Source of the DNA: Rhodococcus jostii RHA1
GTDB lineage: Bacteria; Actinomycetota; Actinomycetes; Mycobacteriales; Mycobacteriaceae
Direction: 5' to 3'
Length of the DNA: 64,000 bases
Assembly (NCBI RefSeq): GCF_000014565.1
Contig: NC_008269.1
Location: forward strand, 1-64,000
The position numbers and the translations under genes were made by a program. Positions 18,532 to 57,540 of the stretch are shown here, piece after piece. How positions within the stretch are numbered: position 1 is the first letter of the stretch; the number at the start of each line of letters is the position of its first letter. The notes beneath the pieces were generated by a model, which was given only the letters and a program-made list of their open reading frames with translations, was not told the origin of the DNA and ran no database searches.

Positions 18532-19036
18532 GCCGCTCCTCGTGATGTATTGGATGTTGGTCGACGGCACCGCGCGCAAAGCGGTGAGATGCTGAGATAT
18601 TCACTACTGACAGCAGGCTTAATTGGGGTCTGCGAGAGTCCGGTGTGCTCTGCAACAGCGGAGACAATTGCGGCGCCCGTCAGCGAAGCACCGGGTCGCT
18701 GCTCTCCGTACGACCACCTCGCTGACGATCACACATTCCGATAAGGACTCACCGCGACGTCCGCACCGGGAACGCCGCCCGCGGAGTCGGCACCGGGCAC
18801 GCTGCCGCACCACCTCCACCGCCAGTCATGTGATTCATGGCACAGAATGTAATCTACCTACTCGTCGGTCGTCAATAACATTTGCGTCGACGTTTCTTAC
18901 AGGCGCTCGAGTTTCACCCGCTGGGGCCGTGCGTCGACCACCGCCACGCAGCAGCGGGAATCTATTAATTGAAAATGGTCAGGTGGTTGCCTGACGCCGT
19001 GGTTCGATGGCCCTGCAAGGCCGTGCTCTAGAAGGC
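18532..19036. other. intergenic region upstream of aldehyde dehydrogenase
   Basis: No gene recognised. It contains the presumed aldehyde dehydrogenase promoter and ends at the IS630 left terminus. The segment around 18840-18980 is less GC-rich than its surroundings. Confidence 0.4.
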
Positions 19037-23067: not shown

Positions 23068-23101
23068 GATTCCGTGCATGCGGTTCTCCCGCACACGGCT
23101 C
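23068..23101 (-). ncRNA. group II intron domain V
   Basis: The minus strand reads GAGCCGTGTGC, a tetraloop-type turn region, then GCATGCACGGAATC, which folds into the short bulged hairpin of domain V with the catalytic AGC-like triad near its base. It has the canonical 34-nt length and lies just downstream of the maturase stop codon, followed by a domain VI-like stem before the 3' end. Confidence 0.75.
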
Positions 23102-24479
23102 ACCGACGTCGTTCACCACCGGCATTCGGCTTCCCCCGCCAGTCCCGGAAGGGCCTGGGGGCGACGACGTTCCCAGAAAGGCTGACCAGGCCCAGATGGT
23201 CCGGGGAGGCATACGCCACCACGTGCCATCCGAAGCTGCGGGAGCGCTTGTGACGTTTGCCGATGAACAGCGCCATCCGCATCCGCACGTACTCCCTGAT
23301 CACCCCGAAGCGGTGTGCTGAGTTGCCGTACTTGAAGTACGCCGCCCAGCCGTTCAGGAACAAGTTGAGGTCCTGAACCACCACCTCGGTCGGCAGCAGC
23401 AATCGGGAGCGGTCCGTCAATTCCCGGATCCGTTCCCGTGCGTGCCGCACCGCCTTGTCCGCGGGCCAGCGGGCGAGGAAGGGGAACGGCCGCCGCCCGG
23501 GGCGAGCGGGCGCGTTCACCAACCGATGATGGAAACCGAGGAAGTCCACTCCCTCGCCTCCCACCCGAAGGTGCACAATCCTGGTCTTGGCCTCCTTCGG
23601 CTCCAAGCCGAGATCGGCCAGCAGTTCCCGAAGCCGCGTCAACGCGGCCTCGGCCTGCCGCCGGGACCTGCACATCACCAGCGCGTCGTCGGCATAACGC
23701 ACCAGGACCCCGTGCTCGTCCACGTCCCATGCCCGGTCGAGCCGGTGCAGGTAGACGTTGCAGAGCAAGGCGGATGCAACCCCGCCCTGTGGGGTTCCGG
23801 TGACCGGCCGACGGACCTGCCCCTCCTCCATCACTCCCGCGCGCAACATCACGCGCAGCAGCTTCAGGAACGGCTGGTCGCAGACACGTTCCTCGACCGC
23901 CTGCATCAACTTCTCGATCGGAATCGCCTCGAAACAGTTGGCGATGTCCGTCTCCACCACCCACCGACACCCCCGCCAGGACTCATCGATGAGCACCTGC
24001 AGCGCGTCATGGGCACCACGCCGGGGACGGAACCCGAACGAGCACGGAAGGAAATCCGCCTCGAACACCGGCTCCGCCACCAGTTTCCACGCGGCCTGGA
24101 CGATCCGGTCGCGCACCGAAGGAATCGACAGCGGCCTTTGCTCCACCGTGCCGGGCTTGGGGATGAACACCCGACGCGCCGGGAGCGGACGATAGCTGCC
24201 TTCCTTCAGTTCCACGGCCAGTTCGTCGAGGAGGCGGGCAACCCCGTACTCCTCGACCTCCTCCAGGGTGATTCGGTCGATACCCGGCGCGCCGTTGTTG
24301 CGGCGCACCGCGACCCACCCACGCCACAGGACGTCCCTGCGCGAGACCTTGTCCATCAGCGCGTGGAACCGTCGTCCGGGATCGACCTTGGCCGCCCGGT
24401 AGAGCGCATGCTGCAAGGCACGGACCGGATCCGAGGGAGAACGTCCCCCGTCGGCGGGACTAGCCACCTGGGCACTCAC
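23100..24479 (-). CDS. ltrA: group II intron reverse transcriptase/maturase
   Basis: About 459 residues, probably from a GTG at 24479 (VSAQVASPADGG); the open frame extends to 24533. Reverse transcriptase motifs are intact: NNGAPGIDRITLEEVE (RT-1), RPLSIPSVRDRIVQ (RT-2), FRPRRGAHDAL and VVETDIANCFE (RT-3), TGTPQGGVASALLCNVYL (RT-4), LVRYADDALVMC with the YADD active site (RT-5) and VDFLGFHHR (RT-6/7). The maturase (X) domain follows (LNLFLNGWAAYFKYGN). No HNH endonuclease domain is present, so target-primed integration would rely on nicked or replicating DNA. The gene ends at domain V. Confidence 0.9.
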   Translation of the reverse strand: MSAQVASPADGGRSPSDPVRALQHALYRAAKVDPGRRFHALMDKVSRRDVLWRGWVAVRRNNGAPGIDRITLEEVEEYGVARLLDELAVELKEGSYRPLPARRVFIPKPGTVEQRPLSIPSVRDRIVQAAWKLVAEPVFEADFLPCSFGFRPRRGAHDALQVLIDESWRGCRWVVETDIANCFEAIPIEKLMQAVEERVCDQPFLKLLRVMLRAGVMEEGQVRRPVTGTPQGGVASALLCNVYLHRLDRAWDVDEHGVLVRYADDALVMCRSRRQAEAALTRLRELLADLGLEPKEAKTRIVHLRVGGEGVDFLGFHHRLVNAPARPGRRPFPFLARWPADKAVRHARERIRELTDRSRLLLPTEVVVQDLNLFLNGWAAYFKYGNSAHRFGVIREYVRMRMALFIGKRHKRSRSFGWHVVAYASPDHLGLVSLSGNVVAPRPFRDWRGKPNAGGERRR

Positions 24480-25058
24480 CGGGCCCCTCCTCCACATCTC
24501 TACGCATCGACGAAGTAGCGGCCCTTCCCTCACCGGCGGTTATGTTGTCCGCTCGGCTCCAGCAGTACTACGGCCGCCTCTGACGCCCACCCGGCCGGCA
24601 CCCACTTCCCGAGGTCATCGGTTATAGGGCACCCAGCTTCCAGCGGCACCTGCGCGCAGGCCGCCGGGCCGGGGAGGGCCTCTCCAGTTCCCGCCGTCAC
24701 TATCCGAACGTTCCGCGCCCCTTACGCCGGGGAGTTCATCACGACTGCGATTCCAGGCTCTTCGCCGCTTCCATGGCCTTCGCCCTGACACTCCGGGCTC
24801 GGCTCTCCCTTGTCCCACCTCACGATGGGGATTTTCACGACGCGGCAGGCTTCGCTTGATGCTACGGACCACTCGGTTGCTCCCCCTTGAAGGGCTTTTG
24901 ACGCTGGGCTTCGACACCGGGCGTTTCCCCCCGATGCCGCCAGCCTGCTACCGGGCCTCCTGGCAGTTACCCGGACCGGACTTGCACCGGCAAGCGACGA
25001 CGAGCTTACGACTGACGATCAATCACCTACATGACCAACCTCCGTCTTCTGGACGCAC

Positions 25059-25747
25059 AGTGGAACAAAATCGAACACCGGTTGTTCTCCCAGATCACCG
25101 TGAACTGGCGGGGACGGCCGCTGACCAGCCACGAGGTCGTGGTCAAGACCATCGCCTCCACCCGCACCCGCACCGGGCTGCGCGTGGACGCCGAGCTGGA
25201 CACCGGCGACTACCCGATCGGGATCTCGATTGGTCGAGACGAGTTGCGCGCGTTACCCATCCACCCGCACGCCCAGTGCGGAACATGGAACTACACCATC
25301 GAACCCACCCACGCCGACGCCGCTCCGGTTCCCGGCCGCGACCGGGAACGCGAGCGTGCCACGGCCGTCGCAATGCTCGCCGACCCGCGCCTGACCCGAA
25401 TGACCAGCGCCGAACTGAACGAACTCACCGCACGGCTGGCACCAGCCCAGGCCGCGCGCGCCGAGCAACGCCGCTGGCACCAACGCGGCGGCCGGCGCCG
25501 CAATGCCCCGGGTGCCGGCGGGCGACGGCTGCTGTCGGACGCCGCGGCCCTGCTGATCACCATCGTGTACCTGCGGCAGCTCTGCTCCCAGCGGGTGCTC
25601 TCGGAACTGCTCGGGGTGAATCCGAACTCCATCGGCGAAATCATCGCCGAAACGCGGATGCTGCTCGTCGAACACGGCCACCACATCACCCCGACCACCG
25701 GACTGCGCTTCACCACCGCCGCCAGCCTGTCGGACTTTCTCCCGTGA
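25059..25747 (+). pseudogene. ISAzo13 transposase, C-terminal part with extra module
   Basis: Resumes in frame after the intron with WNKIEHRLFSQITVNWRGRP, LTSHEVVVKTIA, GLRVDAELDTGDYPIG and HPHAQCGTWNYTIEP, the conserved end of ISAzo13 transposases. It then continues without a stop into about 120 residues (MTSAELNELTARLAPAQAAR, AAALLITIVYLRQLCSQRVL, LLGVNPNSIGEIIAETRMLL) that form a helix-turn-helix-like module repeated in the next gene. Stop at 25747. Alone it lacks the N-terminal catalytic Asp residues and cannot act. Confidence 0.75.
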
Positions 25748-26201: not shown

Positions 26202-26519
26202 CACGCAGGACGGCCCGTTGTCATTCAATGCGGCCCGTTTGGTGACTTTGCCACTATGGTTTGGCCCAAGACCTCATCGACGCCGCGACATATCCCGAAG
26301 CGATCAGCAACGCTGCCAACGCCCGGCGCCGCCCCGATGAAACCGCCACCGGGCCGGATTAACTGGCGCGATCCCCTTCCGGCAGAGTCGCAGGTCAACT
26401 TTGATGACAACCAACAGCTTGATCGTCTGCCATCGAATCAGGCCCACCCAGGTCAGCGGCGCGGCACCAGGCCGATCTATCTGTCACCGGACATCGACAC
26501 ATTAATTCCTTACAGTCAC

Positions 26520-27216
26520 CATGGAACCAGCAGCGCTGCTCCCGGGTGTCGGGGAACACCTCCCGCAGCCCCGCCAGAATCCCAGTGCTCCGTCCCCGAC
26601 CGCCAGCACCGGCGCCCGCATCCCACGGCGGTGGCAGTCCCGCAGCAGATCCGCCCACGCGATCGACTCGCGGTAGCCGTCGGTCAACGCCACGAGCTCC
26701 TTACGGCCGCCGGCCGCACCCCGAGCATCACCAGCACGGCACAGTTTCTCCTGCTCGAGGCGCACTTTCAGGTGGATACCCATCCAGCCACAGATGCACT
26801 GAGATCCTCGTTCCCGAGCGCGGTGGCCTCGTCCTGCCACTGTGCGGTCAGCGGGGCGATCGAGGCGGCCGACAATCCGGCCCCGGTGCCGATGAACTGC
26901 TCCAATGCCCCGAAGTCGCTGGTGGAGAGTCCGTGCAGATACAGCGGCGGCAGCGCCTCGCTGACCTGCGTGGACTTTACGTGCCCAGGCCGGCCGGCAG
27001 GATCGCCGAGGAGAACCGCTTCAGCTCGTCCGTGTCCGGCTCGAGGCGCCTGTCGTTTGACCCGCGGGCCCTTGACCCCCTTACCGCCCCGGCGGAGGTC
27101 AACACCTCGCGCGCCTGGTGGTAGCCGTTGCGCACGATCAGCCGCCGGCCGTTCTCGTCGACCTCACCGCAGTGCGTGCCGGGTGATGTAGTCGGCGTCT
27201 TCGTAGGAGTCGTCAT
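26520..27216 (-). pseudogene. IS256-family transposase, N-terminal part
   Basis: From 27216 the minus strand gives VDENGRRLIVRNGYHQAREV and, after frameshifts, RFSSAILPA, the DGIHLKVRLEQEKLC catalytic block, KELVALTDGYRES and APVLAVGDGALGFW, ending REQRCWFH at the transposon junction (26520). The next residues of the family (ANVFAALPKSAHP) are found at 21975 on the far side of the nested insertion. Several frame changes show it is decayed. Confidence 0.75.
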
Positions 27217-27295
27217 TGTTCCGCCAGCGCGCCAACGCCGGTCTTGATCAGAATTCGGACCCCTTGCAGATCATTCTCCGGGAAGATCATTGCTC

Positions 27296-27312
27296 CACCC
27301 GCTCGGCGGGTG
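27296..27312. promoter_or_regulatory. 17-bp palindrome, candidate TetR operator
   Basis: CACCCGC-TCG-GCGGGTG is a perfect inverted repeat 49 bases upstream of the TetR start. The size and spacing fit a TetR-family operator and would allow autoregulation. Direct repeats AGATCATT lie just upstream at 27268 and 27284. Confidence 0.45.
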
Positions 27313-27360
27313 ACGTAGATTCAGTGTCGCAGGTCTAATGCCAAGCTGACAGGAGCGACA

Positions 27361-28041
27361 GTGCCCGGAGAAGGACGAAAGCCGAAAAGGCCCCGGGGCA
27401 GGCCGCGGTTTACCGAACCGTCGCCGGAGTACGTTCGCCGCCATGACGAGATCATCGAGACAGCGGCCCAGGTCTTCCACGTCAGCGGCTACGAGGCGGG
27501 GTCGCTCGACGACGTTGCTGCGGCGCTCGACCTCCGCAAGCCCAGCCTGTACTACTACGTCGACTCCAAGGCGGAGCTGCTCTACCTGATTTTCGACCGC
27601 GCGATCTCCTTGGCGCTCGAGCGCCTCGACGAGCTGGCCACCATCGACGACCCAGCGGAGCGCCTGGCGGCCTTCATCGCGCATCAGGTGCGCATCGTCG
27701 CTGAGGAGCGGAGCCTCTTCTCGGTCTTCTTCGAGAATCGACCGCGTCTCGACGACGACTACGAGGTGCAGATCAAGACCAAGGAGCGCCGGTATTTCCG
27801 CCATTTCGTCGCGGCCGTCGAGCACGCCAGCGGCGCAGGTGTGATTCCGAAAATCGATGCGCGCTTCGGGGCGCAAGCGATCTTGGGCATGTCGAGTTGG
27901 GTCTACAAGTGGTTCGATTCGGACCACGATGATGCGACCCAGGTGGCCGGCGACTTCGTCGAGCTGATCCTCAGGACCCGTGTACAGGTCGACACGGTCT
28001 CGTTCGCTAAAGTCCTTTATCCCGAGGCTCGCCAGAGCTGA
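27361..28041 (+). CDS. TetR/AcrR-family regulator
   Basis: 226 residues from a GTG at 27361 preceded by ACAGGAGCGACA. A basic N-terminal tail (KPKRPRGRPR) precedes the TetR HTH: IIETAAQVFHVSGYEAGSLDDVAAALDLRKPSLYYYVDSK, with the recognition helix KPSLYYY. The ligand domain resembles regulators of acyl-CoA or aromatic-CoA pathways (KstR2/PaaR type), but this is only general likeness. It lies on the same strand as the PaaA-like cluster 1.6 kb downstream, with IS21 debris between, so it may be the displaced regulator of that cluster. Confidence 0.8.
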   Translation: MPGEGRKPKRPRGRPRFTEPSPEYVRRHDEIIETAAQVFHVSGYEAGSLDDVAAALDLRKPSLYYYVDSKAELLYLIFDRAISLALERLDELATIDDPAERLAAFIAHQVRIVAEERSLFSVFFENRPRLDDDYEVQIKTKERRYFRHFVAAVEHASGAGVIPKIDARFGAQAILGMSSWVYKWFDSDHDDATQVAGDFVELILRTRVQVDTVSFAKVLYPEARQS

Positions 28042-28049
28042 TTAACTTG

Positions 28050-28195
28050 CGCCCCGACGCGAGAGCCACCTCGACGGTGATCGCCGAGGCTCCGGCCGCG
28101 TCGAGGTAGGCCACGAAGCGGGGAAGGAGCCGGGCGGCGTCATCGATCCGGTGTCCCAACAACCGACGCAGGCGCAGGTACTGTTCGGCCTGCTC
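28050..28195 (-). pseudogene. tyrosine recombinase N-terminal fragment
   Basis: The minus strand reads AEQAEQYLRLRRLLGHRIDD, LLPRFVAYLDAAGASAITVE, the SAM-like core-binding start of a transposon or integron-type tyrosine recombinase. It breaks off after VALASG. The fragment is fused in frame to decayed istB DNA upstream, so it marks a junction between two mobile elements. Confidence 0.5.
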
Positions 28196-28199
28196 GGCG

Positions 28200-28730
28200 A
28201 AGGCGCTCCCGGGCCAGGGCCCGCAGAGGGTCAGCAGCAGCGGCCGGGTGGTATTCGCGCATGCGCTGGCCGATGGTCCGGTCGGCGTGGCCGCCCGCGA
28301 GATCGGCGAGCATGCGGGCGCATTTGACGAACCGCACGTCCCCGCCGCGCCGGGTGACATGATGCCCAAGCGCCTGTGCCACATGGGTTTTGCCGAATCC
28401 GGCCCGTAGAGAATGACCGATTCGCCGGCGTCGAGCCAGCGGAGGGCGCCCAGGTCCCGCAGCATCGCCGCGGGAAGCTTCGGGTTCGCAGTTAAGTCGA
28501 AGTCCTCGAAGGTGGCCTGTTGTTCGAACTTCGCCCGCCGCAGCCGCTGGGCGAGGGCCGCGGTTTCGCGGCGGGCGATCTCGCCTCACAGAGCACCTGC
28601 AGGAAATCGAGGTGCCCGCGCTTGCCCGTCGCGGGTCTGGGCCAGCCGGGCGTCGAGGGTGTTGAGCATTCCGGTGAGGGTTCAACGTCCTCAGGGCAGC
28701 CAGCAGGCTGGAATCGTGAATAGTCCTTAC
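28200..28730 (-). pseudogene. IS21-family helper ATPase (istB) remnant
   Basis: Blocks of IstB appear in shifting frames: RRAKFEQQATFEDFDLTANP and KLPAAMLRDLGALRWLDAGE, VILYGP (start of Walker A), FGKTHVAQALGHHVTRRGGD and RFVKCARMLADLAGGHADRT. Frame changes within the Walker A region and near the N-terminus inactivate it. The istA start at 28886 is on the opposite strand, so the original IS21 layout has been rearranged. Confidence 0.65.
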
Positions 28731-28885
28731 GACTCCTTGGTGTGGTGGAAGTAGTTGGCGTGCAGAGGGGGTATCGCTGCACGCAGCGACGTCTCTGGCG
28801 GTGCGTTCGGTGTCGAAGGCGTCGGGCCGCGCAGGAACGCCGTCGCGCCGGCGGGCGATCCGTCGTGTTCGGAAGGAGAACGTGG

Positions 28886-29085
28886 ATGATGACCGATCTG
28901 ATGGAGTTGTTCCGGCATTGGCATGCTGGCCGGTCTCATGTGTCAGATCTCGACGGCCATGAGGATCGACCGAAAGACGATCCTGAAGAGCCTGGCTCCG
29001 GCGTTGGAGGCGGGTTGACGCTGGGCGAGGGTGGGAAGTTCGACGAGATGGTCTGGCGGGAGTTGATCGCCAGATGGTTAGTCAG
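28886..29085 (+). pseudogene. IS21-family transposase (istA) N-terminal fragment
   Basis: After GGAAGGAGAACGTGG an ATG at 28886 begins MMTDLMELFRHWHAGRS, the IstA start. The HTH continues in another frame (STAMRIDRKTILKSLAPALEAG), and the first frame resumes with VWRELIARWLV. The fragment ends after about 66 codons. Confidence 0.6.
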
Positions 29086-29600
29086 GCCCCTTCCGGGCCC
29101 TTGTCGGTGGCCCAGCAGGAGCGAACCTGCAGCAGCCCGAACCCCGAGCCGACGCGCCCCACAGGTGGGAATTACGTGACGGACAACCCCTCAACCTGGG
29201 GAATTTCGTGAACGCTGACAACCAGACCGTACGACGAGATCAGGACATTTCCCACCTACACCGACAATGCAGACCGACGGCGGCTTGACTCTTACGTTGA
29301 TCGGAAGTCCATCAGTGGTCCAGCGACGCCACCAGATTCGGCGACACCACCTCCGAATCATTCGGAGACAGGGGCAAGAAGTCATACCGCACTGGGCCCG
29401 AGGCCGACGCCTCGGGAGCACCTGAACTAAACGGTAACGGGACAAGGCCGTGCCGGTCCGGCCGCGGTCGTAGACCTGGGCCGAGGCGCTACACAGCTTC
29501 GCAACCGACGAGCTTTTCGCGGGTGCACGCGGTCGGAAACTGCGCCGACACGCCCTGTTCAAGGGCGTGGTGCGCACCATCCAAATTATTTTGTTCGACT
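29086..29600. other. mobile-element debris without intact gene
   Basis: It contains paired repeats GGAATTACGTGA (29169) and GGAATTTCGTGAACGC (29201), which resemble IS21 terminal repeats. A 38-codon open tail at about 29485-29601 on the plus strand (DELFAGARGRKLRRHALFKG) looks like the end of some real protein but I do not recognise it. No complete gene is present. Confidence 0.4.
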
Positions 29601-29607
29601 AGTCGGT

Positions 29608-29632
29608 TGACACCTTAACAGCTGGGGTGTCA
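29608..29632. promoter_or_regulatory. inverted repeat TGACACC-N11-GGTGTCA, candidate operator
   Basis: Perfect 7-bp arms with an 11-base spacer, 42 bases upstream of the PaaA-like start. The left arm overlaps a TTGACA that could serve as a -35 box. The position suits control of the 29674-33764 cluster. Confidence 0.45.
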
Positions 29633-29673
29633 CGCTGGGCACCACGCTGGACCACGGATGTGAGGAGACCGCT

Positions 29674-30405
29674 ATGACTGCTTCGACAGTGGAGTTGCCG
29701 GGCCGAAAGATCTACGCCGAGGGCGACCCGGAGATCCCGCAGGAGTTCCGTGAGCTGCTGACGCGCATGCTCACGCACCACTTGGAGAACTCCACCAACC
29801 CGAACTACACCGAACTGCTGAATACGCTGTGGGCCAAGGGAATGACCCTCATTCCCGATCAGCGACTCAAGGTGACCTACGCCAAGCTGATGCAGCAGGA
29901 GGTCGAGCATGGGGCCATCACGGCACGCATCCTGGACGGCCTCGGGGTGGGTCCGGTCGACGGGAAGATCAAGCAGTATCTGTTCCACCTGCCGATCGAC
30001 ACCTTCTGTGACCTGGCCTTCTTCAACGCCCTCGGCGACAGGGTCGGCTGCTACATCGGCGAAACCTGGGACGGCGTGCCCTACGCCCCGTTACTTGAGG
30101 TCGCCGATCGCCTCCATAAGGACGAGGTGTTCCATGCGACCTTCGGCATGAACAACCTTCGCCGAATCGTCGCGACGCCGGAGGGCCTCGCCGAAGCCAA
30201 CGAGAAGGTGAAAATCTGGTGGCCGGCAGCGCTCGACATGTTCGGCCGCTCGGACTCGGACTTCTCCGACGTTTACGTCAAGTGGGGGCTGCGTCAGAAG
30301 AATAATGAGGAACTCCGGCAGCAATACATTGTCGATACCCGTCCGATGCTGGAGAAGCTCGGCATCGCGGTACCGGCCGACACTGCGAATCGCCGCTTCC
30401 TCTGA
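29674..30405 (+). CDS. PaaA/PaaC-family diiron oxygenase-like protein
   Basis: 243 residues, ATG at 29674 after TGAGGAGACCGCT. The sequence belongs to the phenylacetate-CoA epoxidase (PaaA_PaaC) ferritin-like family: QEVEHGAITARIL (E76xxH79), FFNALGDRVGCYIG (about 116-129) and LHKDEVFHATFG (E151xxH154) give the two ExxH diiron motifs. The usual first-helix Glu is probably E38 or E47. Known epoxidases need PaaA, PaaB, PaaC and a PaaE reductase, but here a single ferritin-like subunit is followed by two unknown small proteins and a reductase. It is therefore likely to be the oxygen-activating subunit of a related but distinct enzyme acting on a CoA thioester or aromatic; the substrate is unknown. 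Confidence 0.75.
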   Translation: MTASTVELPGRKIYAEGDPEIPQEFRELLTRMLTHHLENSTNPNYTELLNTLWAKGMTLIPDQRLKVTYAKLMQQEVEHGAITARILDGLGVGPVDGKIKQYLFHLPIDTFCDLAFFNALGDRVGCYIGETWDGVPYAPLLEVADRLHKDEVFHATFGMNNLRRIVATPEGLAEANEKVKIWWPAALDMFGRSDSDFSDVYVKWGLRQKNNEELRQQYIVDTRPMLEKLGIAVPADTANRRFL

Positions 30406-30677
30406 TGAACAAGAGCACGTTGGGAGGGTGGACGGTCGATATTCACCGGCCGCACCCCAAGATGACGGTGTATGACGTGAGCCTGTCCGGTTACCACGAG
30501 TTCTTCTCCGTGGCAGTGGGCGCGAAGTCGCTGGTGATCACCTCTCTCGAACCTGGTGAGGACGCCTACCCCGAACCGCAGGTATTCGTCTTCTCCAAGC
30601 CGTACGGATGGCGCGACGACCTCGAGGGCGACGAGGCACTGATGCAGGTGTGGCAAGCCGTCGGTGTGCAGCGCTGA
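30405..30677 (+). CDS. small protein of the oxygenase cluster, unknown family
   Basis: 90 residues. The ATG at 30405 overlaps the stop of the diiron gene by one base, so translation is coupled. The protein is rich in beta-type sequence (TVYDVSLSGYHEFFSVAVG, SLVITSLEPGEDAYPEPQVF) and has no signal peptide or metal motif. Its place matches that of PaaB in paa operons, but it does not resemble PaaB. It may be a structural or effector subunit of the oxygenase. Confidence 0.7.
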   Translation: MNKSTLGGWTVDIHRPHPKMTVYDVSLSGYHEFFSVAVGAKSLVITSLEPGEDAYPEPQVFVFSKPYGWRDDLEGDEALMQVWQAVGVQR

Positions 30678-30702
30678 CGGTTCAACAGAGCAGGGAGCAG
30701 TT

Positions 30703-31008
30703 ATGACGACCTACACAGTGCGCGGCGGCCGCAACGGTAGTCGAGTGCACGTCACCTGGACCGACGGGACGCTCTCCGGTGATCCGCCGACCGTCGACCT
30801 TATGCAAGTCGAGGCCGAATTGGCGCTGCTACACCCACAAGATCGCCTCTCATGGGCCCAGATGGTGGACCCCGAGCAGCTCCTCCCGGCCGACCCGCTC
30901 TCGGAACCCACCGCGACCTGGCGGCTGATCCAGAGTGTGTTCGACACGGTCCAGTCCGGAGAAGGTGATCTTCCAACGGAGGCTGTGGACGTGTTGGCGG
31001 GTAGATGA
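30703..31008 (+). CDS. second small protein of the oxygenase cluster, unknown family
   Basis: 101 residues from MTTYTVRGGRNGSRV (ATG 30703, with GGGAGCAG upstream). Acidic, no Cys motif, no membrane segment. The middle (QVEAELALLHPQDRLSWAQM) is helical. I do not recognise it. Its position between the diiron protein and the reductase suggests a role in the same complex or pathway. Confidence 0.65.
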   Translation: MTTYTVRGGRNGSRVHVTWTDGTLSGDPPTVDLMQVEAELALLHPQDRLSWAQMVDPEQLLPADPLSEPTATWRLIQSVFDTVQSGEGDLPTEAVDVLAGR

Positions 31009-31113
31009 CACTAAAAGTGACACGACGGTGGTCGTCATGAGCTCTTCGGTCGACTCGTTCACAATCCCGGTCCTGCGAGCACGAGAACTCCCGAAGGCGG
31101 GGTAGCTGACACA

Positions 31114-31932
31114 ATGACGATCACCGCGGCTTCGCAGGCATTGGACCTGTGGGCGCTCGAGAGGTGGCTGCGGGCGCGCGGCCTGCCAGTCACCGGTCCA
31201 CTTGCTGCGCAGGTCGTCATCACCGGTGGCCGGTCAAACCTGACGTTCTTCCTGACCGATCAGGCCGGACGCAGGTGGGTCGTGCGCCGTCCGCCTCTCG
31301 GCGCGGTCCTCTCGACTGCACACGACGTCGGCAGGGAGTTCCGGGTTATGTCGGCCCTGGCCGGAACTGCTGTCCCGGTCCCCTCGATGGTGGGGTTGGG
31401 CACGGATGCCCATGACGTCGCCTTCTACGTGATGAACGAGGTGCCCGGACTGGTCCTGCGCGACGGCGTTGCAACGACGACCGCGCTCCTGGGCAAGGCG
31501 TGCGCGCAGGCCGGCGAGGGGCTGGTCGACGCGCTGGTCGACGACCAGGGTGCGCTGCAGGCGGTCCTCGACTGGGAGTTATGCACCCGCGGCGACCCGA
31601 TGGTGGACCTTGGTGTGTTCCTCTACTACTGGACCGAGGCCCACGACCCCGTGACGCCGTTTCTGGACCCGCCCACCATCCTGCCCGGTTTCCACAGTCG
31701 TCAGGACCTGCTCGCACACTACGTACGGGTCAGTGGACGGCAAGTCCAACGATTGGATTACTACCTCGCGTACGCGGCATGGCGCAGCGCCGTGGCCTTC
31801 GAAGGCGTAGCAGGGCGGTCGGCGGCCGGCGCCTACGGACCCCCCGATGCCGCGGAGGAGCACCGACTGGCCGTGGTCACCCGAGGACTGATCGCCCACG
31901 CCCGCGACCTTCTCGAGAAAGACGGGTCATGA
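31114..31932 (+). CDS. aminoglycoside-phosphotransferase-like protein lacking the catalytic loop
   Basis: 272 residues. The N-lobe fits the APH/FadE36-like family found in acyl-CoA gene clusters (VVITGGRSNLTFFLTDQAGR, WVVRRPP, REFRVMSAL), and the C-lobe resumes with VDDQGALQAVLDWELCTRGD (the metal-binding DWE motif at about 153-155). The roughly 100 residues normally between, including the HGDxxxxN catalytic loop, are missing; the join is GEGLVDA-LVDDQG at about residues 134-144, where an 11-bp direct repeat GCTGGTCGACG (31521 and 31533) sits. The frame is kept, so a shortened protein may still be made, but it should not be a kinase. Its stop overlaps the start of the reductase gene. Confidence 0.65.
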   Translation: MTITAASQALDLWALERWLRARGLPVTGPLAAQVVITGGRSNLTFFLTDQAGRRWVVRRPPLGAVLSTAHDVGREFRVMSALAGTAVPVPSMVGLGTDAHDVAFYVMNEVPGLVLRDGVATTTALLGKACAQAGEGLVDALVDDQGALQAVLDWELCTRGDPMVDLGVFLYYWTEAHDPVTPFLDPPTILPGFHSRQDLLAHYVRVSGRQVQRLDYYLAYAAWRSAVAFEGVAGRSAAGAYGPPDAAEEHRLAVVTRGLIAHARDLLEKDGS

Positions 31933-32903
31933 ACGGCGACAACGTTATTTGTCCGCTACGGGTCGATCGTGTGGTACCCGAGTCCGACGGGGTCGTTTCC
32001 CTGCGGCTGGTGCACCCGGACGGACAGCGCCTACCGGACTGGACGCCCGGCGCGCACCTCGATGTCCTGCTGCCGTCCGGACTGCTACGCCAGTACTCAT
32101 TGTGCGGTGACCCTCAGGACGACACCGGCTACCGGATCGCTGTGCTCCGGGAGGCGCGCGGCCGGGGCGGCTCGCGGGAGATCCACGACAGCGCGCTCCT
32201 CGGGTGCACGCTGGGCATCCGGGGGCCGCGCAACCACTTCGCACTGTCCACCGCTCCGCGCTACCTGTTCCTCGCCGGCGGCATCGGCATTACGCCCATT
32301 CTCGCGATGGCCCGCGAGGTCAGCCGACGCGGCGTCCCGTGGCGACTCGTCTACGGCGGGCGCACACGCTCCACGATGGCGTTCGTCGACGAACTCCAGA
32401 ACCTACCGAGCGGTCAGGTCGAGCTGGTCCCCCAGGACGAGCGCGGCCACATTCCGCTCGACGATATCCTCGCCGCGACGCCGCCGGACACACACATCTA
32501 CTGCTGCGGACCCGAACCGATGATCCGAGCAGTGGAGGCCGCATGCGCACGCTGCTCCGCTCTCGACCGGCTCCACGTCGAACGGTTCACCGCGCCCTCG
32601 CTGGCCGAGCAGCCACCGGTCGAACCGGTGGGCGACGGTACCTTCGAGGTCGAGCTACACCGCTCCGGCGTGGTTCTCCGCGTACCCGCGAACCGGACCC
32701 TGCTTGAGGTGGTGCGGGATGTGGTGCCAGGCGTGATGTCCTCCTGCGAGGAAGGTTTCTGCGGCGCGTGCGAGACCAAAGTCCTCGAAGGGGTGCCCGA
32801 GCACCACGACTCGATCCTCAGTGACGCCGAGCGGGCGTCCTGCAACACGATGATGATCTGCGTAGGCCGGGCCCGGTCAGGGTTGCTCGTCTTGGACCTC
32901 TGA
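31929..32903 (+). CDS. oxygenase reductase (PDR/VanB type, C-terminal 2Fe-2S)
   Basis: 324 residues; the ATG at 31929 overlaps the preceding stop (ATGA). Order of domains: flavin binding with RQYSLCGDP (about 55-63), NAD binding with FLAGGIGITPILAM (about 114-127) and YCCGPEPMI (about 193-201), then a plant-type ferredoxin with C-x4-C-x2-C in SSCEEGFCGACETKVLEG and a fourth Cys in ASCNTMM. It passes electrons from NAD(P)H to an oxygenase, by position the diiron protein of this cluster. PaaE reductases also have this set of domains. A homologue begins at 63621. Confidence 0.9.
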   Translation: MNGDNVICPLRVDRVVPESDGVVSLRLVHPDGQRLPDWTPGAHLDVLLPSGLLRQYSLCGDPQDDTGYRIAVLREARGRGGSREIHDSALLGCTLGIRGPRNHFALSTAPRYLFLAGGIGITPILAMAREVSRRGVPWRLVYGGRTRSTMAFVDELQNLPSGQVELVPQDERGHIPLDDILAATPPDTHIYCCGPEPMIRAVEAACARCSALDRLHVERFTAPSLAEQPPVEPVGDGTFEVELHRSGVVLRVPANRTLLEVVRDVVPGVMSSCEEGFCGACETKVLEGVPEHHDSILSDAERASCNTMMICVGRARSGLLVLDL

Positions 32904-33050
32904 TCCGTGACGCGCGCGTCCATCCCCAGAGTGAAGACTGCCGGGACGACACATGAGCTGCCATCGGTCGTCGAGTGCACGATTACTGCGCGATCGAAAG
33001 GTGTGAGAACACATGACGAATACCCACGGCGGCGCGTTCGGTTCTGCGCG

Positions 33051-33764
33051 GTGAGTACGCGGCTCGTGCTCGTCGAGCGCAATGGTGCGCTCGCCCGAGT
33101 GGTACTCAACCGGCCGGACCGCCGCAATGCTCTCGACGACGCGCTCATCGACGCCCTCGACGATGCCCTCCGACAGGTCGCAGCGGCGAGCTGGTGCCGG
33201 GCCGTGCTGGTGACCGGCGCTGGCACTGCGTTCCGCGCGGGCGGCGACATCGCCGCCAACTCCGGTGCCGACGTCCCCGGTGCGATCGTCCGGCAGCGCC
33301 GATTCCTACAGGTCGCCGCGCGACTGCACGAGATGCCCAAACCGACGGTCGCTGCCGTCAACGGTGCCGCGGTCGGTGCCGGTTTCTCACTGGCTCTGCT
33401 CTGCGACGAGGTGATCCTTCTCGGCTCGGCCAAGCTCGGGATGGGCTTCCTGACGATCGGGTTGCCGCCGGACCTGCTGGCCACCTTGACGGTGCAGCGT
33501 CGGGCCGGCTGGACCGTCGCGACGGACCTGTTCCATTCGGGCAGGATGGTCCCGGCGGATGAAGCGGTCCGGCTGCACCTGGCCCATGAGGTCGTCGAGG
33601 ATGACGTCGTGGGTGCCGCAACGCGGCGCGCCGAGGTACTCGCTGCCTTCCCTCCGTTCGCGTTCGCTGCTACCAAGTCGCGGCTGCGCCAGTCTTTCCC
33701 GGCGACTGCGGCCATTGCCGAGCTGGAAGCCTTGGCCGTCGGGGTAGCGGGTAGGGACCCCTGA
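33051..33764 (+). CDS. enoyl-CoA hydratase/isomerase
   Basis: 237 residues from a GTG at 33051 (VSTRLVLVERNGALARVVLN). Crotonase features: NRPDRRNALDDALIDALDDA, GTAFRAGGDIAANSG with the oxyanion-hole segment, and AAVNGAAVGAGFSLALLCDE. The usual catalytic Glu positions are not obvious (GAGFSLAL and IGLPPD), so isomerase or ring-processing chemistry is as likely as hydration. It ends the 29674-33764 cluster, where it could act on the CoA-bound product of the oxygenase. An upstream extension of the frame to 32907 lacks family resemblance. Confidence 0.8.
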   Translation: MSTRLVLVERNGALARVVLNRPDRRNALDDALIDALDDALRQVAAASWCRAVLVTGAGTAFRAGGDIAANSGADVPGAIVRQRRFLQVAARLHEMPKPTVAAVNGAAVGAGFSLALLCDEVILLGSAKLGMGFLTIGLPPDLLATLTVQRRAGWTVATDLFHSGRMVPADEAVRLHLAHEVVEDDVVGAATRRAEVLAAFPPFAFAATKSRLRQSFPATAAIAELEALAVGVAGRDP

Positions 33765-34189
33765 GTTCGGGGCCGCGACTGTGGCCTTTCGGCCGCGCAC
33801 CGAGGCCTCGACTGACGACCGCGCCTGACCGGCCAGCCCGGTCTCGACGTGTCCTCGTCGGTAACCTGGCGTGTACTCATGCGGGTGACCTCGGGGTAAT
33901 CGGTCCCGCCTGGCCAAAGCCGATCGTCCGTGCATCGACACGGGCCGGTTACAGTCGAGGTTTGCGGAGGTGCCTACCCCGAGCCTCCGCAGCGGCGACC
34001 GATCGAACCCGTCGACAGCCTGTCATCACGCAAGACGAGTCCTATATTCCGTCCTGCCCCTGAGGGTCCAAGCATGGCGTCGCATTCGGGACGCCGGAGT
34101 CACAAAGAAAGTTGAGGGGAACGGACCGTCCACCGCAGCGCCTCCGCCTGCGCCTGGCCACGTAGCTGTGTCGAATCGAATCCGGCCAG
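33765..34189. other. intergenic region after the oxygenase cluster
   Basis: No gene recognised. It runs from the enoyl-CoA hydratase stop to the IS1380 remnant. Confidence 0.4.
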
Positions 34190-34610
34190 CTCACCCGTAC
34201 ACCGGGCGCAGCAGCGAGTCGATGTCGAGGAACGCCCGGTCCTCGATGCCGGGCAGCAGCGGGGTGCGAGGCCGATCAGGTGTCGTCGCAGCACCGCCCC
34301 GAGCTGCAGGGTGTGCCCGTAGGTGAACTCGCGCAGGAAGATCCTTAGGCGTCGAGGGGCGTACACCTACTCGAAGAGAATCGGGGTGCCGCCTGCGCGG
34401 ATGGTCCACATCGTCGATGCTGTCGGCTCCGGTGAGCATCCCGCCGATGATCGAGGGTGAGTTTCCCCACCGGGTTCACCGCTCCCGATGCCACCCGCGT
34501 GGAGGCGGGGTCGACATGGGTGTGGATCACACCCTGCCGCCGGCACGAGATTGCGTTCGTCGGACACCGCGGCCCAGCCGTGAGCGTGTGCGATGACTGC
34601 ACTGAAAGCG
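34190..34610 (-). pseudogene. IS1380-family transposase fragment
   Basis: The minus strand contains LTGADSIDDVDHPR near 34430, and in shifting frames REFTYGHTLQLGAVLRRHL and LLPGIEDRAFLDIDSLLRPVYG (near 34190-34250), the N-terminal region of IS1380 transposases. It ends abruptly after VYG. At least two frameshifts are present. Confidence 0.6.
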
Positions 34611-34699
34611 CTTTTCCTCATGTGGACAATCGCGATCTCGGCAATCTCGATTCGCTCACTGCAAGAGGATCTTTCGTCATTCACCCGCCGTCACGCTCG

Positions 34700-35575
34700 C
34701 TACAACCCCCACGGATCCACGCTAAGCCGTGGGTCGACAAGATCGCGGCGACAGTGTTCGAGACGCCGTCTGCGGATCCACTCCGTTGCGGTGGTCCCTT
34801 CGCCCTCGAACATCTTCTGCAGATTGCGGGGCGAGATGTTGTGGGCGCGGGCGATGAGGTGCGAACTGAGCTCCGGGTCGTAAAGCCGGGCATCGATGAA
34901 GGCTTTGATCTGCAAAAGCAAAGCAGCCCGGTTCGTCTCGGGCGGCACATTCGATTCGCAGCCGAGTTGCTCGGACAGTGCCGCCGCGAGCAGGTTGAGC
35001 ACCCCGTTGGACAACTGTTGGTTTGCCGACAGCTCTTCAACGCCCCGCGGCTGTTCGGCTATGCCGACGAGGAGCTTCGAGACCAGGCCGCCGATCCCGC
35101 GCCTACCGGATACTCTCCGGGCCGTCATGTCGTTGAGGGCGTCCGGCGGCAGATGGATCAACTCGTGGGGGAACATCACCACCAACTGCGCGAAGTCCCC
35201 CTCGAAGGAGACTTGGTACGGCCGTCTGGTGTCGTAGATGCTGAAATCCCCCGGAATCAGGGCTGCCTCCCGATCGTCCTGGGTCAAGACACAGTAGCCG
35301 CGGATCTGCATCCCCAACTTCACGTAGCCCGGGTCCGAGCGCCGGATCGCATCCGGCATCCGGCACACCTCCACAGCCCCTCCGCTGACCTCGGAAACCT
35401 GCAGCGAACCGACCACTCCGGTCAGAAGTTCACCCGTGAACGTGCCGGCGGTGTAGGACTTCGCGTCCAGTGGCACGAACGCGTTGGAGACCGTCTCACG
35501 CCAGGCATCGAACTGTTCGCCGGCGGGCAGATCGTTGCAAGAAAAGAGAGAACTCACAGGCTGGTCCTTATTCAA
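34700..35575 (-). CDS. AraC-family regulator truncated in its DNA-binding domain
   Basis: 291 residues from MNKDQPVSSLFSCND. The N-terminal half is the AraC-binding-like sensor domain (VKLGMQIRGYCVLTQDDREA, YDTRRPYQVSFEG). The first HTH of the AraC domain is present (SSHLIARAHNISPRNLQKMF and GTTATEWIRRRRLEHCRRDL), but after VDPRL the family's second HTH (normally about 45 more residues) is replaced by SVDPWGL and a stop. The truncation faces the IS1380 fragment. DNA binding is probably impaired. It resembles activators of aromatic or hydrocarbon operons in rhodococci. Confidence 0.75.
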   Translation of the reverse strand: MNKDQPVSSLFSCNDLPAGEQFDAWRETVSNAFVPLDAKSYTAGTFTGELLTGVVGSLQVSEVSGGAVEVCRMPDAIRRSDPGYVKLGMQIRGYCVLTQDDREAALIPGDFSIYDTRRPYQVSFEGDFAQLVVMFPHELIHLPPDALNDMTARRVSGRRGIGGLVSKLLVGIAEQPRGVEELSANQQLSNGVLNLLAAALSEQLGCESNVPPETNRAALLLQIKAFIDARLYDPELSSHLIARAHNISPRNLQKMFEGEGTTATEWIRRRRLEHCRRDLVDPRLSVDPWGL

Positions 35576-35905
35576 CAGAAGCCGTGCGGCGGGAAGGGCA
35601 CCGCGCTCGGCTCGACGTCGATCTCCATCAGGTAGGAGGCTCAGGCGCCTCTACACCGTCCGGCCGGGCGAACAGCGCCAGTATCGCGACGTGCATCCTA
35701 TGTTCGCGGGACTCGCCGATCGAGTCCGTCGGTGACATCGGAGCAGCAAGGTTCAGCCTCCCATTGGCAGCGCCTCTGGGATGGAGCTGCGTCCCAGAGG
35801 TGCTGGCCCCCGCCTGCAACGATAGGTGCATCACACGGTGGCGACGGTCCGCACGGCGCAGGGATTGTCCAGATAGCGCAGAAACTTTCGGAGCACAGGG
35901 TTTTT
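35576..35905. other. intergenic, no gene recognised
   Basis: Between the truncated AraC gene and an AraC C-terminal remnant. No reading frame with family resemblance was seen. Confidence 0.35.
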
Positions 35906-36250
35906 CGTCAACTACGTCGTGGTCAAGGTTGTCGACGGCGGCTGCCCGTACCGCCCTCGGTAGTCGACGGCAAATCGGCCGAGGTGCCGAAAACCCCAGC
36001 GATAGGCCACATCGGCACCGCGTCGTGGCGCGGATCAGCCAGAATCAGGTCCTCGTGGGAGCGCTCGAGCCGGATGTCTCGGAGAGAGGTCATCGGCGAG
36101 AGACCGACGTACCGCGCATCGTCCTGCAGGGTGTGCACGGTGACACCGACAAGCTCCGCCAGCCCGCTGACGGTCCACGGCTCCTCGGGGTGGGCGTGCT
36201 TCGCATCGATGGCCAGCTTGATGGTGCGCGGGCGGGCCGCCGGTGCCGGC
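35906..36250 (-). pseudogene. AraC-family C-terminal remnant
   Basis: The minus strand reads AIDAKHAHPEEPWTVSGLAE, then VHTLQDDARYVGLSPMTSLR and RLERSHEDLILADPRHDA, the double-HTH region of an AraC regulator. A frameshift then spoils the second HTH (the GF..S..F block). No sensor domain precedes it. It is a separate gene from the truncated AraC at 34700-35575. Confidence 0.6.
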
Positions 36251-44173: not shown

Positions 44174-45712
44174 ATGCACATCCCATTTACGGTTACAGAC
44201 TTTCTGGAGCGGGGAGCGGCCGGTTTCCCTGACAGCGTGGCCGTGATCGACGAGCCGGAACAACCGGGCGAGTCGGTCGGGCAGGTGACTTTTCGGGAAC
44301 TCGCCCACCGCGTGTGTGCCTGGCAAGCAGGATTCGACCGTCTGGGCATCAGGGTCGGCGAACGGGTCGCCGTCGTCAGCCACAATTCGGCCCGACTGCT
44401 CGAGCTCTTGTACGCGGTGCCGGCGAGCGGCCGGATTTGTGTTCCGATCAATTTCCGTCTGTCTCCGGCGGAGGTCGATTACATCGTCGGAGATTGCGGC
44501 GCGTCAGTGCTTCTTGTCGATCCCGAGCTGGAAGAGGCGTTGTCGGGTATCAAGGTTCGGCACCGGTTCGTACTCGGGAAGCACACAGACGCGGATCTGA
44601 TGCGCTTCGATACGGAGCCGGCCCCCTGGGCGTCGCCCACGGAGGAGTCGACGGCAACAATCAACTACACCTCCGGCACCACCGCGCGCCCGAAGGGTGT
44701 CGAGATGACTCATCGTAATCTTTGGGTCAATGCCGTCACACTCGCGATGCACACCCGTGCGTGGGAACGCGATGTGTACATGCACACGTTGCCGATGTTC
44801 CACTGCAACGGTTGGGGGATGCCGTTCGGGATGGCAGGACTGGGCGCGAAGCAGATCGTGTTGCGCAAGGTCGACGGCACCGAAATCCTCCGGCGGGTGG
44901 AGGAACACGGTGTGACGTTGATGTGCGGGGCTCCGGCGGTGTGGAACGCGGTGCTCGATGCTGCCCGGTCCTGGCAGGGAGAGATTCCTGGTCGCGATCG
45001 GGTGCGGGTGGTGTGCGCCGGCGCTCCTCCGCCCAGCCGTACCATCGCGCGCCTGAGCAGCGAGTTGGGGTGGGAACTGCAGCAGATCTACGGGCTCACG
45101 GAAACATCGCCGCTGCTGACTTTCAACCGGTCGCTGCCTGCGGATGACGGTCTTGATCTTGAGGAACGAGCGCACAGACTGACCCGCGCCGGACTTCCCG
45201 CCCTCGGTGCACGGCTTCATATCTCCAACTCGGGTGAAGTTCTGGCGCGTTCGAACGTCGTGATGAACGGATACTGGAACAACCCCGAGGCGACCGACGA
45301 GGCGCTGCGTGATGGTTGGTTCCACACGGGAGACGGCGGGATGATCGACGGCGAGGGCCAACTGACGATTTCCGACCGAAAGAAGGATGTGATCGTCACC
45401 GGTGGCGAGAATGTGTCGTCGATTGAGGTGGAGGAATGCATCTTCAGCCATCCCGGTGTGACCCAGGTCGCGGTGATCGGCGTACCGGACGAGAAATGGG
45501 GCGAGACCGTCAAGGCGCTGGTGGTCACCACGGGTCCCTCCACAGTCTCCGAGGCCGAGATCATCGCACACTGCAAGCAGCACCTGGCGGGCTACAAGGC
45601 GCCGACTTCGGTGGAGTTTCGTGACTCGATTCCACATACCGCGACGGGCAAGATCCAGAAGTTCAAGCTCCGAGCGCCGTATTGGGAAGGGTCGACGCGC
45701 GGCGTGAATTGA
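44174..45712 (+). CDS. acyl-CoA ligase (AMP-forming, FadD-like)
   Basis: 512 residues. Complete adenylate-forming enzyme: TINYTSGTTARPKGVEMTHRN (about 158-178), IYGLTETSPL, GWFHTGDGGMIDGEGQL, ISDRKKDVIVTGGENV, and the catalytic Lys in HTATGKIQKFKL. It activates a carboxylic acid to its CoA ester with ATP. Placed next to the bphTS-bph block and sharing the regulatory motif, it may activate the acid released by meta-cleavage hydrolysis (for example benzoate, propionate or isobutyrate, depending on the growth substrate); this is inference. It is convergent with bphT. Confidence 0.9.
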   Translation: MHIPFTVTDFLERGAAGFPDSVAVIDEPEQPGESVGQVTFRELAHRVCAWQAGFDRLGIRVGERVAVVSHNSARLLELLYAVPASGRICVPINFRLSPAEVDYIVGDCGASVLLVDPELEEALSGIKVRHRFVLGKHTDADLMRFDTEPAPWASPTEESTATINYTSGTTARPKGVEMTHRNLWVNAVTLAMHTRAWERDVYMHTLPMFHCNGWGMPFGMAGLGAKQIVLRKVDGTEILRRVEEHGVTLMCGAPAVWNAVLDAARSWQGEIPGRDRVRVVCAGAPPPSRTIARLSSELGWELQQIYGLTETSPLLTFNRSLPADDGLDLEERAHRLTRAGLPALGARLHISNSGEVLARSNVVMNGYWNNPEATDEALRDGWFHTGDGGMIDGEGQLTISDRKKDVIVTGGENVSSIEVEECIFSHPGVTQVAVIGVPDEKWGETVKALVVTTGPSTVSEAEIIAHCKQHLAGYKAPTSVEFRDSIPHTATGKIQKFKLRAPYWEGSTRGVN

Positions 45713-45732: not shown

Positions 45733-46362
45733 CTAGTCCAAAAGACCTGCGTCCCTGGCTACTCGGGCCAGTTCGGCGCGGGTGCGGATCAGCAGCTTAC
45801 GTTGAATGCTGGCTCGGTGGCTCTCGACGGTGCGCGGAGAGACCGTCAGTTCCTCCGCGATCTCGGTGTTGGTGAGGCCGGAGGCGATCAGCTTCATTAC
45901 CTCGAGCTCCCTTGAAGAAAGAGAGTCGATATTGGCCTCGAGCAGGCTTTCGGAGCCGCCGGGTTCGGTGGTGTCTGCTCGAAACGAGACAAATCCTTCA
46001 TCCTTCATCACGGTGTAGAGGACAGACACGAGCTCCTCGTCCAGGCATTCCTTCGTGATGTATCCCCGCGCACCCCGCGTCTTCGCTTTGTCGACGTATC
46101 CCTTGGCGCCGTACATGCTGAGCATCACGACACGGGTCTCGGGCGAGATGGCTGAAATCTGCTCCAACAGGTCGAGGCCGTTGCAGTCGGACAGTCGGAT
46201 GTCGAGCACCACCAGTTCCGGCGCGAAGTCTCGCACTGCTTGCAGGAGAAGTTCTCCGGTCGGTGCGGACGCCACCAGGTGAAAGTCCGTCGTGGTCTCG
46301 AGGATCCTCCGGATCCCGGACCGGATAATGCCATGGTCGTCACACACCACAACGCTGATCAT
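45733..46362 (-). CDS. bphT: NarL/LuxR-type response regulator BphT
   Basis: 209 residues from MISVVVCDDHGIIRSG (ATG 46362), overlapping the stop of bphS as ATGA. Receiver: Asp8/Asp9, phospho-acceptor Asp54 (VVLDIRLSD), Lys104 in YITKE. The C-terminal LuxR HTH reads SSRELEVMKLIASGLTNTEI and LTVSPRTVESHRASIQRKL. The length equals that known for BpdT/BphT, the activator of biphenyl and alkylbenzene operons in rhodococci. It probably binds the CATCCGGGAAAACTACGG element found at three promoters in this window. Confidence 0.9.
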   Translation of the reverse strand: MISVVVCDDHGIIRSGIRRILETTTDFHLVASAPTGELLLQAVRDFAPELVVLDIRLSDCNGLDLLEQISAISPETRVVMLSMYGAKGYVDKAKTRGARGYITKECLDEELVSVLYTVMKDEGFVSFRADTTEPGGSESLLEANIDSLSSRELEVMKLIASGLTNTEIAEELTVSPRTVESHRASIQRKLLIRTRAELARVARDAGLLD

Positions 46363-51155: not shown

Positions 51156-51335
51156 GTTGTTCCCTAGATCAGCGACTTCGCTGTCACGGTCCAGTCTCCC
51201 CAACAAACCAGACTCGCGCCATGAGCGGCTGGGTAACCACAATGTGGGCCCGGAGGGGATCCCGGCACCGTGGTCACCGACTGCTATCCCGGAGGTTCGG
51301 GAAGGACCTACCCGAGACTTCGGAAGGTAGCCAGG

Positions 51336-51755: not shown

Positions 51756-51781
51756 GTTTCTTCCTGTCCGAGGGCAGCGTC

Positions 51782-52597: not shown

Positions 52598-52634
52598 CAG
52601 AATCCCTTTCTTCGTCTTGTGAGTTCGGTTCGTC

Positions 52635-53588: not shown

Positions 53589-53898
53589 TTCTTACCTTTC
53601 TTGGAGTGTGATTTGCGCCGTCGGCCGTAGGTTGTGAAATCACCCAGGGACCTCGGGTATGGCTTTCCTGTTGTTGCCGTGCTCGACGGCCCGAAGGAGA
53701 TTGGCTACCCGGCGACCCGAGCCGACTCGACCGCTGGTTTGGGAGATGCGACTCGATCGCGGTGCCTGCGTTGGCTTCCTACCCCATCTTTCGACCTGCG
53801 CTCGGTCCAGCGGAGCCGGCCACCGTGGGGTGCACGTCGTCGCCGGACCGGTGGCCCGGCAGAGCGGATGAGTGATCGTCCCTAGCGGTCCTCGGTGA
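53589..53898. other. intergenic gap inside the bph operon
   Basis: About 310 bases between bphAd and bphC without a recognisable gene. The gap is long compared with the rest of the operon and could hold a promoter or processing site for bphC-bphB. No motif copy was found in it. Confidence 0.4.

Positions 53899-56032
<2,134 letters not shown>

Positions 56033-56115: not shown

Positions 56116-57540
<1,425 letters not shown>

Follow-up and report, generated by a model that had tools for sequence, protein, structure and literature searches.

Introduction

In the known phenylacetyl-coenzyme A (CoA) epoxidase, PaaABCE, the subunit PaaA is held by PaaB and PaaC and fed by a class IA reductase, PaaE, itself related to phthalate dioxygenase reductase (PMC4498308). 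The diiron centre of Escherichia coli PaaA is ligated by E72, H75, D126, E155 and H158, as well as by E42, and a lysine bridge is formed by K68, E49, E72 and D126 (PMC4498308). BoxB, also a diiron acyl-CoA epoxidase, has a separate BoxA and a crotonase-fold partner, BoxC (in part after PMC4498308). The analysis also draws on PMC9493321 and PMC13186573. Here we analyse a six-gene cluster (genes A to F) of Rhodococcus jostii RHA1 that encodes one PaaA-like protein followed by two small proteins of unnamed families. It lies in the first 64 kb (positions 1 to 64,000, 'the window') of contig NC_008269.1, which is 1,123,075 bases long and one of four contigs of the 9.7-Mb genome.

We consider it somewhat probable that the cluster encodes a CoA-thioester oxygenase that manages without PaaB and PaaC and is partnered by B, joined in one subclade by C, within a phenylacetate-like pathway. 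The support for this reading is homology, conserved ligands, recurrent linkage and the absence of PaaB and PaaC from the locus. An initial annotation, made from the sequence, had placed six open reading frames (ORFs) here, with two ExxH motifs in A and a one-base overlap between A and B. All six are present and A and B do share one base:

29674..30405, + strand: A, PaaA-like diiron subunit, 243 residues (PaaA_PaaC match, ligand alignment)
30405..30677, + strand: B, 90-residue protein of an unnamed family (beta-meander with C-terminal helix in the model)
30703..31008, + strand: C, 101-residue protein of an unnamed family (confident model, no good PDB match)
31114..31932, + strand: D, APH-like ORF, HGD segment missing, probably decayed
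31929..32903, + strand: E, PDR/VanB-type reductase with C-terminal 2Fe-2S domain
33051..33764, + strand: F, crotonase fold; PaaG-type Asp present, both hydratase Glu residues lacking

The starts of C (101 residues) and F (33051) follow the annotation of a linear Rhodococcus pseudokoreensis plasmid (NZ_CP070614, hereafter the sister plasmid), which is 98.8% identical to window positions 26500-36000; the longest reading of C begins at GTG 30664 and the longest ORF of F at 32907. Genome G266 of the same genus carries the cluster on a contig that has the length of this plasmid. In Pfam (E<=0.1) D matches APH, E matches NAD_binding_1 and Fer2, and F matches ECH_1.

A single PaaA-like subunit with conserved iron ligands

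A belongs to the Pfam family PaaA_PaaC (62.2 bits, cut-off 28.5), its sole Pfam match at E<=0.1; at that threshold it has no alpha/beta hydroxylase domain of the soluble diiron monooxygenases (soluble methane monooxygenase/toluene monooxygenase type). Its score of 68.7 bits against the PaaA equivalog TIGR02156 does not reach the cut-off of 280, and the 18.9 bits against the NCBIfam PaaC model are likewise below the cut-off (133). The closest solved relatives are PaaA subunits (E ~1e-11 to 1e-10), then 4mud (E 5.3e-5). A family tree places the A proteins in one clade (99/99), separate from two PaaA and two PaaC sequences, with a long-branch warning on the outer branches.

The two ExxH motifs of A (E76/H79 and E151/H154) and D122 align with the five PaaA ligands E72, H75, E155, H158 and D126, and all five positions are invariant in 140 of 140 sequences. 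This alignment (138 distinct sequences) comprises the window protein, 19 copies from related loci (the divergent paralogue L011_9070 included) and, out of 462 relatives in the database, the best 120; the A of L012 was missed by the gene caller, is absent from this set and from the tree, and was counted by hidden Markov model (HMM). E38 is Glu in 139 of 140 sequences, the exception being L011_9070, and probably stands for the sixth PaaA ligand, E42, though it occupies another alignment column. E47 was also considered for this role and was ruled out in favour of E38, as it is Glu in only 71 of 140.

The host genome holds three PF05138 genes, namely A and the canonical chromosomal PaaA and PaaC. 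Canonical PaaA (510.6 bits), PaaC, PaaE and PaaK are all chromosomal and score above their NCBIfam cut-offs, and PaaB is chromosomal too (143.5 bits, Pfam). The window cluster is therefore hardly the host's phenylacetate epoxidase. The initial annotation was right that the locus has a single PaaA-like subunit, with PaaB and PaaC both absent. Since these are missing here and the canonical set is chromosomal, the most parsimonious interpretation has B and C standing in for that assembly.

It seems improbable to us that A is a diiron protein of some other function (desaturase, oxidase or peroxide handling) and that E serves an unrelated oxygenase. PDR/VanB-type reductases are often linked to Rieske oxygenases; E is annotated as PDR/VanB in the sister plasmid and is seldom linked to A. 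The lysine bridge is absent from A, and PaaA-like genes are not confined to this context: one in Alteromonas, for example, adjoins a radical SAM gene. However, PaaE is itself a class IA enzyme related to phthalate dioxygenase reductase (PMC4498308), and CoA-pathway neighbours predominate in the related loci (see below).

B and C belong to conserved families without a name

The two small proteins, which the initial annotation could not recognise, match no Pfam or NCBIfam family at E<=0.1. Both are conserved families that recur near A, which argues against a chance grouping. In a large protein set (E<=1e-3) B has 47 relatives and C has 49, named 'hypothetical protein' wherever the source gives a name; one relative of B, P0166, carries an unrelated Pfam domain.

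Family scans, profile searches and HMM-HMM comparison gave neither B nor C a sequence match to PaaB or another oxygenase subunit. As PaaB homologues both were rejected: hhalign returned 0.2-0.3% for B, with one or two sequences on the PaaB side, and 0.14% for C, with only two, which makes each a weak test. The Pfam PaaB model recovers the host's PaaB (143.5 bits) and leaves B and C unmatched. By sequence, then, neither is PaaB, though a fold in common with it is possible. Against the PDB, the B profile finds weak matches to unrelated proteins alone (best E 0.03) and the C profile nothing at E<=1. When the family members were scanned singly against Pfam, the hits were few, weak and scattered: for B two families, each hit by a single one of the 25 members (DUF3389 the strongest, E 0.061), and for C eight, each hit by a single one of the 31 (Med20 the strongest, E 0.038). 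AlphaFold2 models B (mean predicted local distance difference test, pLDDT, 85.3) as six strands, the first very short, with a C-terminal helix, and C (pLDDT 91.5) as three strands, helices, a fourth strand and a last helix. Neither model has a convincing structural match in the PDB.

Twelve longest-contig sizes are common to the lists of B and C relatives, which suggests, without proving it, that the two families share metagenome contigs. The C of L002 was omitted from one alignment (A2). One relative of C, P0198, has the C-terminal motif of B inside its N-terminal half; it is either a fusion or a read-through that links the two families.

Recurrence of A, B and C in other genomes

A genome scan yielded 19 related loci from Mycobacterium, Frankia, Acidimicrobiia, other Actinomycetota and one Chloroflexi metagenome-assembled genome (MAG). 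Near-copies account for eight loci of Acidimicrobiia type (L010, L012-L018) and for four from Frankia (L003, L004, L006, L007), which reduces the 19 to about nine independent cases; several of the genomes are MAGs and possibly incomplete. B is immediately 3' of A in 15 of the 19 loci and one gene further in L019. C is present in seven (L001, L002, L004, L005, L006, L008, L009), and a search of 13 genomes found it in three, L001, L003 (a contig-edge piece) and L007. In nine loci (L001-L009) A is at least 73% identical to that of the window, and all nine of these genomes hold C. None of the 19 genomes lacks both B and C.

The initial annotation had raised the recurrence of its gene order in other actinobacteria. 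For the A-B pair this is borne out by the 15 loci; the exact six-gene order was found nowhere but in the near-identical sister plasmid, and we ruled it out as a conserved operon for that reason. A is otherwise sporadic: at 1e-40 it occurs in 2 of 401 genomes of the family, 1 of 397 of the order, 1 of 396 of the phylum and 2 of 28 of the genus, the host's own genome being included each time.

More distant PaaA-like genes were met in two places. L011 carries a second one (9070-9858, - strand), 29% identical to A and divergent from it, with the five ligands retained; 3' of it are thiolase-fold, ChsH2-like and MaoC-type genes. On an Alteromonas plasmid (L052, 6932-9287) a 30% identical PaaA-like gene adjoins annotated radical SAM and MaoC genes, a further case in which a PaaA-like gene stands alone.

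The accompanying genes D, E and F

D aligns with the APH protein of locus L001 (Mycobacterium sp. SM1) but is 78 residues shorter, and the gaps span HGD. Lacking the HGD segment of an active kinase, it is probably a decaying gene inside the operon, which qualifies the initial description of D as phosphotransferase-like. E shares 60% identity with its L001 counterpart and retains the CEEGFCGAC of the 2Fe-2S site; against the PaaE model it scores 76.3 bits (cut-off 420.8), where the host's PaaE reaches 465.4.

F was first described as a crotonase, which is correct for the fold (ECH_1); its catalytic positions are PaaG-like, not hydratase-like. The codon for the PaaG-type Asp lies at 33471 (residue 189 when numbered on the long ORF). 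In both F and L001_15688 it is aligned with the Asp of the host's PaaG-like protein (TIGR02280, 209 bits, under the cut-off of 345), and neither protein has a hydratase Glu. The other aligned locus crotonases have both Glu residues, except L019_2869, which has neither Glu nor Asp. D136 of Pseudomonas PaaG acts as a proton relay (PMC9493321), and the aligned Asp of F would be the same residue.

Between the window and the sister plasmid, synonymous/nonsynonymous changes number 5/0 in the TetR regulator gene (see below), 3/1 in A, 0/0 in B and in C, 0/7 in D (plus a 10-residue length difference), 5/1 in E and 1/6 in F. D, perhaps also F, thus looks to be under relaxed constraint, the changes being few in all. 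These figures bear on the idea that the window cluster is a non-functional remnant, left on the plasmid by insertion sequences, which we regard as rather unlikely. The missing HGD and the changes in D, together with those in F, would fit a remnant, as would the insertion sequence remnants around the cluster and between regulator and A, and the failure to find the relatives' ligase and MaoC-N genes. However, A, E and the TetR gene look to be under purifying selection, small as the overall number of changes is; B and C are unchanged, the iron ligands are intact and the upstream element is retained.

Neighbouring genes point to CoA-thioester metabolism

The initial annotation had proposed a CoA thioester or an aromatic compound as substrate, and the loci of the relatives do provide a CoA-thioester context. 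Neighbours were counted with HMMs trained on the very loci counted and compared with 20 control segments of 20 kb, taken at even intervals from the host chromosome (one genome), so that the contrasts are descriptive only. MaoC-N and MaoC each occur in 16 of the 19 loci and in 0/20 controls, and the three loci without them are short contigs (L002, L003, L007). The MaoC-N label is backed by Pfam only in L001; proteins of the same cluster in L008 and L019 are unmatched in Pfam at 1e-5. Crotonases were counted in 13/19 loci (controls 3/20), CaiB-type CoA-transferases in 11/19 (1/20) and PaaK-like ligases in 6/19 (0/20).

In L001 the genes A, B, C and E are accompanied by those for a PaaG-type crotonase and an HGD-bearing APH protein. 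Family scans bear out the further identities there, namely a ligase, a thiolase, a short-chain dehydrogenase/reductase (SDR), a MaoC pair, an enoyl-CoA hydratase-type crotonase and an acyl-CoA dehydrogenase, and show the reductase to be PaaE-like. The PaaK-like ligase of L001 scores 217.7, versus 646.3 for PaaK. The genes immediately 3' of A in L005 encode two proteins, one ChsH2-like with an OB fold and one with a thiolase fold. Elsewhere in the window there are a different acyl-CoA ligase (44174-45712) and an aldehyde dehydrogenase (17089-18579).

This neighbourhood can be read in two ways. Ring epoxidation is favoured by the PaaK- and PaaG-type neighbours; alicyclic hydroxylation is favoured by the ChsH2-like, thiolase-fold and MaoC neighbours and by the lack of an aldehyde dehydrogenase. 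In the second case an alicyclic, terpenoid or steroid-side-chain acyl-CoA would be hydroxylated in place of aromatic epoxidation, followed by a MaoC hydratase and retro-aldol cleavage. The MaoC-type pairs (16/19) and CaiB-type transferases, the genes next to A in L005, the ChsH2-like and thiolase-fold genes beside the second PaaA-like gene of L011 and the lack of a PaaZ-type aldehyde dehydrogenase in the loci are consistent with it. The PaaK-like ligases and the PaaG-type crotonases of the window and L001 point instead to phenylacetate-like chemistry, and we hold hydroxylation to be possible but doubtful.

A conserved element upstream of A

Three further features lie 5' of the cluster:

27361..28041, + strand: TetR-family regulator (TetR_C_24, Pfam scan)
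28140..28685, - strand: IS21 istB remnant, between the TetR regulator and the operon
29593..29612, + strand: conserved element GTTCGACTAGTCG-GTTGACA, a putative -35 box overlapped by a putative operator

Seven upstream regions (window, L001, L002, L004, L005, L008, L009), picked because they contain it, have in common a block whose last bases are GTTGACA; over the 13 bases ahead of GTTGACA their mean pairwise identity is 0.57, whereas 5,000 random draws never exceeded 0.40. The window copy sits 61 bases ahead of A. Among the four other regions examined, L010 has no TTGAC, L011 and L019 read TTGACC, and L006 is a near-copy of L004. We discarded the idea of a perfect palindromic operator: the palindrome is perfect in the window copy alone (10/10), the other six matching 2 to 8 of 10 positions. 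The element is conserved just as a whole block. A sigma-70 scan gave no + strand site at the element; a - strand site (29613-29585) overlaps it. In 6/19 loci (controls 0/20) the flanking sequence retrieved around A includes a TetR gene of the window type, and binding of this regulator to the putative operator would be a guess.

Other features of the window

Positions 46359-57522 form a biphenyl-type degradation region with a 1627-residue kinase/AAA/TPR sensor, a BphC-like dioxygenase and a Rieske oxygenase alpha subunit. A group II intron reverse transcriptase/maturase is encoded at 23100-24533 (- strand), with a transposase fragment close by (25031-25747). Close to the contig end, positions 12-34 hold an inverted repeat with perfectly matched 10-nt arms and a loop of 3 nt, which could be part of a linear-plasmid end.

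Discussion

In the mechanism we propose, A would be the catalytic diiron subunit and would oxygenate a CoA thioester in a PaaA-like manner, and B, plus C in one subclade, would replace the PaaB/PaaC assembly partners. On the window plasmid, E most likely passes electrons from NAD(P)H via flavin and the 2Fe-2S centre, and F would isomerise an epoxide-like product as PaaG does. In the fuller clusters a PaaK-like ligase would first form the CoA ester, and the MaoC-type pair, hydratase-type crotonase, SDR and thiolase would complete the breakdown. Inferred in this scheme are the insertion of oxygen, the formation of a complex, the electron flow from E, the isomerase role of F and the order of the steps. 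The substrate acid is hardly phenylacetate, because the host has canonical paa genes.

Several observations weigh against the PaaB/PaaC-free oxygenase that we prefer. In the sequence alignment the lysine-bridge positions K68 and E49 of PaaA are Leu and Trp in A (138/140 each). B was not found in searches of the loci and genomes of L005, L008 and L009, and C was not found in ten of the 13 genomes searched for it (L010-L019); with B missing in three genomes and C in ten, neither seems strictly required. E lies within the fetched flanks of A in 1/19 loci (controls 0/20), and any relative of E at E<=1e-10 is present in just 9/19 genomes. There is no PaaZ-type aldehyde dehydrogenase, the window aldehyde dehydrogenase as query being unmatched in all 19 loci. 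The L001 ligase and MaoC proteins are unmatched within the window; in the host genome the ligase yields only 30-32% identical relatives and MaoC-N is unmatched (a search with no positive control; MaoC-C was not searched genome-wide). Either other genes supply the missing ligase and MaoC steps or the window copy is a remnant, as it may be.

With D probably decayed and E near A in a single locus, the minimal unit shrinks from six genes to A plus B, C or both. We put forward, tentatively, a more general form of the preferred reading: a PaaB/PaaC-free acyl-CoA oxygenase of Actinomycetota and Chloroflexota, in which B and C would be alternative or joint assembly or regulatory subunits, acting in an undescribed CoA-dependent pathway of acid degradation. 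Among the papers that the literature searches listed, none describes such a system, and those listed by one of the searches contain no locus tag of the ro0801-ro0804 series (which we take to be the relevant one). By these searches and the family libraries, the cluster is apparently an undescribed, recurrent variant of the Paa-type oxygenases. If so, Paa-type acyl-CoA oxygenation is possible without the scaffold of PaaB and PaaC, and a function can be assigned to two families so far called 'hypothetical protein'. A degradation pathway that recurs in Frankia, a mycobacterium, rhodococci, Acidimicrobiia and a Chloroflexi MAG would then be open to testing.

Among described systems, BoxAB was compared through the family libraries, in which we take BoxB to be represented. 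A matched the PaaA and PaaC models alone in NCBIfam, and no BoxB family is among its NCBIfam or Pfam matches at E<=0.1. We know of no B- or C-type protein in BoxAB. The single-chain PaaA/PaaC homologue 4mud matches A weakly. From PaaABCE the window cluster differs in having one PaaA_PaaC subunit, no PaaB or PaaC and two unrelated small proteins; A lacks the conserved lysine bridge and, at 243 residues versus 317 for the host's PaaA, the C-terminal extension. With PaaABCE it shares the PaaA_PaaC family and five aligned diiron ligands in A, a reductase with a 2Fe-2S domain and, in the loci of its relatives, PaaK-, PaaG- and MaoC-like neighbours.

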